Assembly (NCBI GenBank): GCA_026129685.1
Contig: JAHCHO010000011.1
Location: 1-64,000, forward strand
Reading direction: 5' to 3'
Origin: Fimbriimonadaceae bacterium
GTDB taxonomy: Bacteria > Armatimonadota > Fimbriimonadia > Fimbriimonadales > Fimbriimonadaceae
Length of the DNA: 64,000 bases
Shown here: in pieces, positions 29,706-44,211 of the stretch
Layout: the number at the start of each line of letters is the position of its first letter
How positions within the stretch are numbered: position 1 is the stretch's first letter
Position numbers and translations under genes: made by a program
Notes under the pieces: generated by a model
The model's database searches: none
Told to the model about the DNA's origin: nothing
What the model saw: the letters and a program-made list of their open reading frames with translations, nothing else

Positions 29706-29840
29706 GTGAATCCGCATTGCGACGAGGAGGCGGTGAACGTGGCGAACGTGCTGGGGGTGCGGGCGATCTGCCTGTTCAACGACCACCGGGAGCGGATGAT
29801 CCGTTCGCGCCTGCGGTCTTCGGAAGGCGACGCGTCCTAA
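29706..29840 (+). CDS. Short ORF of unknown status
   Basis: A 44-codon frame from a GTG at 29706 (GGAGG at 29702-29706 overlaps the start) to TAA at 29840, with almost all third positions G or C as in real genes here. It contains AVNVANVLGVRAICLFNDHR, which looks like a folded strand-helix unit. It overlaps the 3' end of the decayed minus-strand frame, so one of the two is likely a shadow. No family is recognised. Confidence 0.25.
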   Translation: MNPHCDEEAVNVANVLGVRAICLFNDHRERMIRSRLRSSEGDAS

Positions 29841-30128
29841 CCTCGAAACCGCCGAGGACCTTGCCGTCGCCCGCGTCGAGGAACAGGTATTGGCGGTCGG
29901 AAAGTTTGTAGACGCGGGCGAGGACGAGTTCCTTGGGGTCTTTGCGTCGCTTGCCGCCGAAGAGGTCGTCGGGGACGACGTACATCGTTTTTGTGGAACC
30001 GGACCTCCTGCTTGGGGTCGGTCCGCTTCTGGACGGCGATCCGAAGGCCGTCGGCGACGGAGAGGAGCTTGCCCGGCGGGGGGAGGGATCGGTACCCGAT
30101 CGCGAAACCAACCAGAGGGTTTGCTCAC
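29776..30128 (-). pseudogene. Decayed gene with two frameshifts, unknown
   Basis: Three adjacent minus-strand frames read as one protein. GTG at 30128 gives SKP, then LVGFAIGYRSLPPPGKLLSV to VRFHKN in a second frame, then after an A5 run (29988-29992) TMYVVPDDLFGGKRRKDPK to RTRRLP in a third. Each shift is an extra base. The joined protein of about 110 residues has no recognised family. It is either a dead gene or an intact gene with two assembly insertions. The 650-bp stretch 29640-30290 otherwise holds only the short ORF at 29706 and one REP-like copy. Confidence 0.45.
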
Positions 30129-30253
30129 GTCCCCAGTCTAGCTCGTGGGGGGGGGCGTTGTCAGAGGCGTCGCAGACCGGGAAATCGTGTGCGGCGCAGG
30201 ATTTAGGGCAAGGCCGATCCATCGCCTCTCTCCCTATGACCGAATTGGGCATC

Positions 30254-30280
30254 GGGATTCTCACTGGCCCAGAATGACAA
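30254..30280 (-). repeat. REP-like repeat, copy E (compact)
   Basis: The minus strand reads TTGTCATTCTGGGCCAGTGA followed by GAATCCC: the same half-sites as the 4388-4702 cluster without the 40-bp spacer. It lies just downstream of the acetyl-CoA synthetase stop. Confidence 0.65.
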
Positions 30281-30289
30281 GGACGGGGC

Positions 30290-32332
<2,043 letters not shown>

Positions 32333-42309: not shown

Positions 42310-43185
42310 CTAGTTTCCGATCGTCGGCGGCTTCGAAAGGTTGAGCCAGGATCGCCAGAGGATCGAACCGTCCTCGGCATTGACGACGACGTAGGCGTTT
42401 ATCTCGTCGTCGAACGGCACCTTCCATGACAAGAGGGAGGGCAAGTCCCGCCACTCGGCCATCGGCTTGCGCTGGTGCTCTTGGGAGGGGCAGTAACCCA
42501 GTTCGGGCGTCTTAGGCAAGGGCGTTTCGGGGGCGTACGGGATGTGGCTTCGGTTCCCCGCGTACTCCGCCACCGCGATCTCCTTGGCCCGCGCCGCCTC
42601 GATCCGTTGAACCCCCGGGACGGCCCTACATCGGCGGTGGATGAAGAACCTCAGAAGATCGCCCGTGACCGGATCCGACTCGAGTTCGGCTCGGTTATCG
42701 AACCCGTGGAACGGAAGCTCGCCCGTGCGCTCGGACACGACGATACGGGCCACCCCGCACCGGTCCTGCATGTCGCCTTCGTCCTTCGACTCGTCGTATC
42801 GCAACGAAAGAGCGTCCGTCTTCCATGCCCTCGGCACCCCGAGTCGCGCGAGCATTGCCCGGAGCTTCGGTTCTAGCTCGGCGGCGGTACGAATGAAGGA
42901 AGGCTCTCGCACCTCGAGATTCCGGATGCGGCTGGTGATGTGCCCCCCATTGGAGACGGATAGAATCTCTCCGGTCTCTAGAAAGATACGGAAGAGGTAG
43001 TCGCCGACCGAGACGATCAGCAAGGACGACGTGCCGAGCTTCTTAACGTCTGCCCGTGACGGCGGCTTCGACAGATGGGCTTCGTCGAGGAATCGCTTGG
43101 CAGCCTCCCCCGCCCGATCCAAACGAGGGTCCTCCTGAAAGTCCGCCCCAAGAATCGTAAGTGACAGTAGCAAGGTGTACAACAT
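42310..43185 (-). CDS. Exported protein with PepSY-like repeats, unknown
   Basis: A 291-residue protein with a signal peptide (MLYTLLLSLTILGADF). Two segments have the beta-beta pattern of PepSY-type domains: VGDYLFRIFLETGEILSVSN near residue 60 and NAYVVVNAEDGSILWRSWLN at the C-terminus. Two or three cysteines in the mature part could form a disulfide. The function is unknown. It follows the caspase-like gene 43198-44211 by 12 bp on the same strand, so the two form a pair. A fragment homologous to its last 25 codons lies at 49078-49165. Confidence 0.65.
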   Translation of the reverse strand: MLYTLLLSLTILGADFQEDPRLDRAGEAAKRFLDEAHLSKPPSRADVKKLGTSSLLIVSVGDYLFRIFLETGEILSVSNGGHITSRIRNLEVREPSFIRTAAELEPKLRAMLARLGVPRAWKTDALSLRYDESKDEGDMQDRCGVARIVVSERTGELPFHGFDNRAELESDPVTGDLLRFFIHRRCRAVPGVQRIEAARAKEIAVAEYAGNRSHIPYAPETPLPKTPELGYCPSQEHQRKPMAEWRDLPSLLSWKVPFDDEINAYVVVNAEDGSILWRSWLNLSKPPTIGN

Positions 43186-43197
43186 CAGCTCTCACTC

Positions 43198-44211
43198 CTA
43201 ACCTTCTTCGATCACGCGTTTCCAGTCCTTGGTAGCCTGTGGTGTACCCGTGTAGACACCCTTCAGCTTGGCGTAAGGATCGCCCCGAACGCTGACTACG
43301 GACTCGAAGGTCTTTCGATCCGACTGTACAAATGCCGACTGAAACGCCGCTTCGGCGGCAGTCTCTAACGGCACGCCGTTCACCATCTCATCCAAGAGAT
43401 TGATGATAAACAGACTCGCCTCCTGCGAAGTGACCGTCTGTTTGAAGCCGATGGCGGCGCGGCCGACGACGGGTGCGCCGACGAGATAGGCGTCGCCGAA
43501 GGCGGGATTGGCGAACGACGAACAGGTGGCGATCAGCGCGAATTGGGTGGGCGGGCGGCTGTCCGGTTGCCCAAAGCTGGTCGCACTCGTGACGGGGCTG
43601 GCGCCGACGGTGCCTCCGCCGGGAGGGTTCAGCACTCCTTCATGACCGTGGCAATAGGTCACGATATGGGTCGCCAAACGAATCGAGCCGGTGGCGTCGT
43701 CGGCGTAGTTCGCGGCGGTCCAGGTGTTGTCGTAGCGCTCTACGAGCTCGTGCGCGGTGTAGCCGAGTCCCCCTTGTGCCGACGCTCGTATCGCGTCGCA
43801 GTCAGGAAGATTCTGTTGAAGGTGAAGAGCGCGCTCGCTGTAGACGGTCCGAGCCGCGCTGATCGCGTCGAAGGCGACGAGCGAACCGTCGGCCAACTTG
43901 GTCTCGCCCGACACCTGGTACGCGACCTGGTCGCCGTTCCGAAAGTGCGCGGTGGCGTCCCAAGTGACGTGCAAGGTGTGCTTCGTGGGCTCCTGGCCGG
44001 CGGGGAAGGTCTTGGCGTGCGCGGTCTGCCCGCCGATCGTCAGGGTGTAGCTCGCGATCCGGTGGCCGGGATCGGCGGCGATGCATAGGTCGAGGCCGTT
44101 TCGCGTTCCGGTGAAGAAGGCGGGCAGTTGGCCGCCTTGAGAGGTCTGCGGGTACCCGACCCTCGTCGCCACGACGAGCACGATCAAGAATCCCAACTTG
44201 AAAAGTCGCAA
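43198..44211 (-). CDS. Exported protein with caspase/CHAT-like H-C dyad, unknown
   Basis: A 337-residue exported protein. Residues 28-120 resemble an Ig-like domain (ASYTLTIGGQTAHAKTFPAG). Residues 140-300 look like a clan CD peptidase: IRLATHIVTYCHGHEGVLNP (candidate H188 or H190), then FALIATCSSFANPAFGDA (candidate C230). The tail GAPVVGRAAIGFKQTVTSQE and LLDEMVNGVPLETAAEAAF follows the pattern of CHAT domains. The start is TTG at 44211: AGGAG at 44220-44224 is 8 nt away and a signal peptide follows (FLIVLVVATRVGYPQ). The open frame from a TTG at 44256 is rejected because that TTGACA looks like a -35 box. Confidence 0.6.
   Translation of the reverse strand: MRLFKLGFLIVLVVATRVGYPQTSQGGQLPAFFTGTRNGLDLCIAADPGHRIASYTLTIGGQTAHAKTFPAGQEPTKHTLHVTWDATAHFRNGDQVAYQVSGETKLADGSLVAFDAISAARTVYSERALHLQQNLPDCDAIRASAQGGLGYTAHELVERYDNTWTAANYADDATGSIRLATHIVTYCHGHEGVLNPPGGGTVGASPVTSATSFGQPDSRPPTQFALIATCSSFANPAFGDAYLVGAPVVGRAAIGFKQTVTSQEASLFIINLLDEMVNGVPLETAAEAAFQSAFVQSDRKTFESVVSVRGDPYAKLKGVYTGTPQATKDWKRVIEEG

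Follow-up and report, generated by a model that had tools for sequence, protein, structure and literature searches.

Secreted peptidases with prodomains or cognate inhibitors

Clan CD peptidases have the caspase/haemoglobinase fold, in which the catalytic His follows strand 3 and the catalytic Cys follows strand 4. The bacterial members known are mostly intracellular, such as CHAT peptidases and metacaspases, and few are secreted, such as gingipains and clostripain. PorU, a member of family C25, is a processing transpeptidase. The gingipain RgpB carries a covalently attached N-terminal prodomain that inhibits it (PMC4357240). SpeB–Spi, staphopain–staphostatin and the C10 pair Btp–Bti of Bacteroides are pairs of a secreted cysteine protease and its inhibitor, in which the protease gene is directly coupled to the inhibitor gene; in Btp–Bti, both proteins are predicted to be exported (PMC3462683). 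SleB and YpeB of spore formers are encoded by a conserved operon, and the PepSY protein may hold the enzyme inactive until proteolysed (PMC13393411).

The locus described here lies in a stretch of 64,000 nucleotides from a Fimbriimonadaceae bacterium (GCA_026129685.1, contig JAHCHO010000011.1), which is referred to as the window. It consists of gene 1, which encodes a predicted exported peptidase, and gene 2, which encodes a PepSY-like protein and lies directly downstream. The coupling is like that of SpeB, the staphopains and Btp with their inhibitors. Those enzymes are papain-fold peptidases of families C10 and C47, whereas the gene 1 family is caspase-like by profile. Their inhibitors are 116–138 aa long in Bacteroides, similar in staphylococci, and not PepSY proteins, whereas the gene 2 product is PepSY-like and has 291 aa. 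SleB–YpeB likewise combines an exported hydrolase with a PepSY protein in one operon, but SleB is a lytic transglycosylase and not a peptidase, unlike the predicted product of gene 1. In contrast to the prodomain of RgpB, the prodomain-like protein of gene 1 is encoded by a separate gene.

Layout of the gene pair

The features of the two genes are as follows.

43198..44211, minus strand: gene 1, predicted exported clan CD-like His-Cys peptidase, 337 aa, TTG start with AGGAG upstream
44146..44211, minus strand: predicted signal peptide of gene 1, about residues 1–22 (sequence and simple hydrophobic-segment score)
43840..44130, minus strand: putative N-terminal all-beta Ig-like domain of gene 1, about residues 28–124 (alignment, low-confidence model and weak Foldseek matches)
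43648..43650, minus strand: predicted catalytic His188 in an HG motif (conservation and alignment with the HG of CHAT and C25)
43522..43524, minus strand: predicted catalytic Cys230 (conservation and alignment with the Cys of CHAT and C25)
43279..43281, minus strand: invariant Asp311 in a GD motif (conservation; aligned with the GDP that ends the C25 domain)
43195..43199, minus strand: AGGAG, the ribosome-binding site of gene 2, which overlaps the gene 1 stop codon (sequence)
42310..43185, minus strand: gene 2, predicted exported PepSY-like partner, 291 aa, signal peptide MLYTLLLSLTILG-A

A sequence-only reading of this DNA had described the open reading frame of gene 1, its His and Cys motifs and the strand and helix that follow them, and all of these read as it described. 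The TTG start is at 44211. H188 and H190 lie within TYCHGHEG, where H188 and G189 form the HG motif, and C230 lies within FALIATCSSFA, 42 residues past H188. Downstream of C230, the GAPVVGRAAIGF strand is followed by the LLDEMVNGVPLETAAEAAF helix. The proposed signal peptide agrees with the N-terminus MRLFKLGFLIVLVVATRVGYPQ, which scores signal-like by a simple hydrophobicity score. The N-terminal part, proposed to be Ig-like, appears all-beta in a structure prediction of low confidence. Across the family, this domain contains a conserved FDSTHFxxG...VxN pattern, and a Pfam scan of 35 members found a Big_7 match in one of them (E 0.059). Gene 2 begins 12 nt past the gene 1 stop codon. A search around the gene pair returned no sigma-70-like promoter, a result that carries little weight in this phylum.

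Family spread and invariant residues

A single-sequence search with gene 1 found one paralogue in its own genome and relatives in two others, and a scan of genome contigs found one locus, in the genus of the window. The first gene 1 profiles extended the family to 22 genomes. A larger alignment (A4; 35 members, 590 columns) found relatives in 54 of 291 Armatimonadota genomes, including 43 of the 194 good-quality genomes and 40 of the 156 genera; the spread over one phylum reflects this search set. The genome of the window (G000) and two others (G027 and G034) each contain at least seven family matches, some of which are fragments, and these copy numbers are lower bounds because scoring was limited to seven candidates per genome. 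No relatives of gene 1 were found in the viral contigs or in the plasmid and phage collections searched.

Members of A4 share on average about 20% identity with the window protein, and only four columns are invariant, namely H, C, D and Y. Among 68 aligned members, the position of His188 is H in all 52 that are readable there, that of Cys230 is C in 59 of 59, that of Asp311 is D in 59 of 59, and that of Trp330 is W in 52 of 52. All 52 members readable at both catalytic positions contain the dyad in the His-then-Cys order of clan CD, and no homologue without the His or the Cys was found among them. Of these 52, 48 are below 60% mutual identity, and the His-Cys pattern is not due to chance. Of the motif residues named in the sequence-only reading, H188 and C230 are invariant, but H190 is not, being H in 3 of 53 members.

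Relation to CHAT, C25 and C14

No Pfam, NCBIfam or PADLOC model convincingly recognises the gene 1 family. The Pfam cut-offs for CHAT, C14 and C25 were reached by neither the gene 1 protein nor any of the 35 members scanned, and no scanned member reached any known peptidase model. The matches in these members were weak and scattered, including one to CHAT (E 0.092). When the A4 profile was compared with PDB sequences, the one sensible match was the CHAT protein 8tl0 (E 0.022), with HG aligned over HG and C over C.

Profile–profile comparison was performed with alignments of CHAT (A8), C14 (A9) and C25 (A10) proteins from the same phylum. The gene 1 family matched CHAT with a probability of 95.7 (E 1e-8) and, in hhalign, C25 with a probability of 90.8 (E 1.2e-6), and in both cases the His and Cys residues were aligned. 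As yardsticks, CHAT matched C14 at 96.3% and C25 at 84.4%, and the partner family, used as a negative control in the same comparison, reached 0.25%. In a gap-filtered rerun, the CHAT score was 69.4; 60 column shuffles gave no more than 17.5, and the reversed profile gave 14.2. The C25 score was 44.6, with shuffles reaching no more than 18.0 and the reversed profile 18.6. Membership in C14 was rejected, as the profile probability was only 1.4 to 2.0, and metacaspases and caspases (PF00656) are alike in dyad order without a profile match. The suggested clan CD resemblance is therefore borne out for CHAT and the gingipain family but not for metacaspases. Outside the window, its genome also contains five matches of C14 type and one 895-codon CHAT protein.

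The likeness to CHAT (PF12770) covers the order of His and Cys, the strand after the Cys and the GxxxxxA helix. The CHAT proteins in A8 are invariant at H157 (the first His of HxxxHG), H161 and D244, whereas the gene 1 family keeps the second His only. The gene 1 family is also predicted to be exported and to carry an Ig-like domain, and it lacks the long N-terminal region seen in the CHAT ORFs of this phylum (about 650–1350 codons). With C25 (PF01364), a secreted family with an attached Ig domain, the likeness extends over HG, Cys and the end of the domain, where the invariant GD of the gene 1 family falls on the GDP that terminates the C25 domain (G357-D358-P359, invariant in A10). The Pro is present in the gene 1 protein but is not general across the family. 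The Ig-like domain is N-terminal in the gene 1 family and C-terminal in RgpB.

Sequence models fully separate the four families. Members of the gene 1 family score a median of 263 bits against their own model, at most 12.4 bits against the CHAT model and at most 4.7 bits against the C25 model, and no other family's score exceeds 12.4 bits. With relatives of more than 35% identity removed, the remaining family still gives the window protein a score of 152.8 bits. Because the models split the four families and the profiles link this one to both CHAT and C25, it is classified, on sequence comparison, as a separate family with these two as its nearest relatives. The proposal of a new grouping within clan CD agrees with these scores.

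An AlphaFold2 model of gene 1, built from a two-sequence alignment with L077, had a pLDDT of 41.8 and left the His-to-Cys region unresolved; Foldseek returned only weak matches to Ig-like sandwiches. Since this two-sequence prediction is too low in confidence, the fold is taken from the profile comparisons, which suggest that members of the gene 1 family are probably caspase-fold cysteine peptidases.

The PepSY-like partner

The gene 2 protein matches Pfam PepSY (PF03413) with 15.3 bits (E 0.026), below the curated cut-off of 24 bits. At E values up to 1, 18 of 30 members of the partner family match PepSY, with a best value of 8e-7. The partner profile finds M4 propeptides in the PDB, namely the PepSY propeptide 9vy3 (6.9e-6), the thermolysin precursor 5a3y (2.7e-5) and the Mcp02 propeptide 3nqy (1e-3). 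Together, these matches indicate that gene 2 is related to PepSY without being a filed member of that family. The likeness to M4 pro-regions (PepSY/FTP; thermolysin, vibriolysin MCP-02) extends across up to about 150 residues. In contrast to those pro-regions, gene 2 is a stand-alone gene without an M4 catalytic domain, and its partner is a putative cysteine peptidase. PepSY domains are also found in proteins that inhibit no peptidase. The structural model of gene 2 (pLDDT 58.2) suggests, with low confidence, about three helix-plus-sheet repeats. Foldseek gave no match to this model below E 0.001; chains of the vibriolysin MCP-02 pro-region were in the top ten.

Several variants of the partner were observed. 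Some partners or neighbours (L050, L059, L063, L040 and L177) are 400–440 aa long, with a C-terminal extension of more than 100 residues and no convincing Pfam match. Four partner-like PepSY genes (L194, L195, L202 and L203) have no recognisable peptidase upstream and belong to genomes in which no peptidase member was found. The window itself contains a short ORF region (29779–30318, minus strand) that has a PepSY-like end, LVLARVYKLSDRQYLFLDAGDGKVLGGFE, in one frame and matches the partner profile at 9.4e-7. It is possibly a remnant of another partner gene, with no adjoining peptidase.

Pairing and predicted export of the two proteins

Adjacency was determined for the 60 peptidase ORFs that have 500 nt or more of sequence beyond their downstream end. 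A partner homologue lies directly downstream on the same strand in 52 of these at E < 1e-3, and the iterated partner profile adds a 53rd pair (L069). Of the remaining seven, L073 has the partner in the same reading frame as the peptidase. The other six are followed by a same-strand ORF of 267–431 codons that the partner profile missed or matched weakly, and several of these ORFs end, by eye, in a PepSY-like VDAxxG. As a control, 2 of 143 other window ORFs of at least 200 aa pass the same test. Fusion of peptidase and partner (L073 / L077 1–1365) was considered and rejected; a frameshift is likelier, because the expected C-terminal motif of the peptidase, GAYRGSF...DWVY, is in another frame.

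Mirror-tree comparison of the identity matrices of 33 pairs gave a Pearson correlation of 0.71 and a Spearman correlation of 0.36. The observed rank correlation was reached by 0 of 2000 permutations and by 7 of 2000 swaps of partners within genomes. Since so few within-genome swaps reach this value, the pairs co-diversify even among paralogues. The proposed pairing of gene 1 with the gene at 42310–43185 is thus confirmed; the two are adjacent and co-inherited, as a protease and its cognate inhibitor are, and gene 2 is a true, conserved partner of gene 1.

Two loci show rearranged pairs. At L041 (1707–9097, G027), four peptidase–partner pairs lie in tandem, and one of the peptidases is a C-terminal fragment whose partner is kept. 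At L047 (G034), an in-frame TGA interrupts the peptidase gene, and three partner genes follow it in tandem; the N-termini of two of these are nearly identical.

Among the peptidase ORFs, counting fragments, 36 of 57 have signal-like N-termini; among the partner ORFs, 60 of 67 do. The simple hydrophobicity score used here leans towards finding signals, because the best start codon was picked for each ORF. That most family members have such N-termini is consistent with the export predicted for gene 1.

Proposed function and alternative explanations

The favoured explanation, which is judged somewhat more probable than its alternatives combined, is a two-gene unit of an exported clan CD peptidase and a PepSY-type inhibitor or foldase acting in trans. 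Gene 1 would be an exported cysteine peptidase with a caspase/CHAT/gingipain-type dyad (H188 and C230) behind an Ig-like domain. Gene 2 would act in trans, as the pro-region of an M4 metallopeptidase does in cis. Its product would bind its own peptidase and keep it inactive, possibly aiding its folding, until both are outside the cytoplasm, and would then be degraded or released. The caspase fold, peptidase activity, binding, inhibition or foldase action, final location and export route are what we infer for this unit. An exported neighbour that resembles the inhibitory pro-part of another protease class suggests that a secreted enzyme is produced together with a safety catch of its own.

The same gene pair could be a unit of antagonism, in which the exported peptidase attacks adjacent cells or proteins on their surface, with the PepSY protein acting as an immunity protein in the periplasm. 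This is rather unlikely. Several observations point in this direction, namely diverging tandem pairs (four in a row in L041), the additional partner genes that follow the interrupted peptidase of L047, partners retained beside broken peptidase copies, and orphan partner-like genes; co-diversifying pairs fit specific immunity. However, an inhibitor retained for self-protection gives the same genomic pattern, so that sequence cannot separate the two. The peptidase, moreover, has its own signal-like N-terminus without a recognised secretion or toxin-delivery domain, the family is absent from the plasmid, phage and viral collections searched, and the one PADLOC match is weak and occurs in one member only. 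A role in anti-phage defence is likewise unsupported, as no window protein matches PADLOC.

It is improbable that the enzyme processes surface proteins for maturation or sorting, as a peptidase or transpeptidase resembling PorU or legumain, with the PepSY protein as an adaptor or substrate-presenting subunit. In favour of such a role, C25 ranks second among the profile matches and has the GD motif in common with the gene 1 family, and both proteins are predicted to be exported. Neighbours, viewed unsystematically, showed neither a conserved third gene nor a sorting signal, and at least seven matches in each of G000, G027 and G034 poorly fit a single housekeeping sorting enzyme. The failure of all 35 scanned members to reach a known peptidase model would suit a non-peptidase use of the fold, in which the His-Cys site serves other chemistry or is purely structural. 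The exact clan CD dyad is nevertheless strictly invariant at about 20% mean identity, and both of its residues align with two peptidase families, which makes such a use very improbable. An inhibitor or foldase acting in trans on an exported peptidase is thus the preferred reading.

Significance of the proposed peptidase–partner unit

The gene 1 family has no name in Pfam, NCBIfam or PADLOC. It represents a new family of a known superfamily, has an unusual type of partner and, as judged by profile comparison, lies between CHAT and C25 in sequence. A PepSY-type partner of a caspase-fold enzyme was not reported in the literature searched, which mostly excluded subscription papers. It is conceivable, at less than even probability, that an M4-type PepSY propeptide has become the free-standing, cognate inhibitor or foldase of an unrelated caspase-fold peptidase, and that duplication and divergence of the pair inside a single phylum have yielded a secreted weapon or processing system with built-in self-protection. 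If the partner does inhibit the peptidase, this would be a new use of the PepSY propeptide, and the family would provide naturally matched enzyme–inhibitor pairs in which specificity can be tested.
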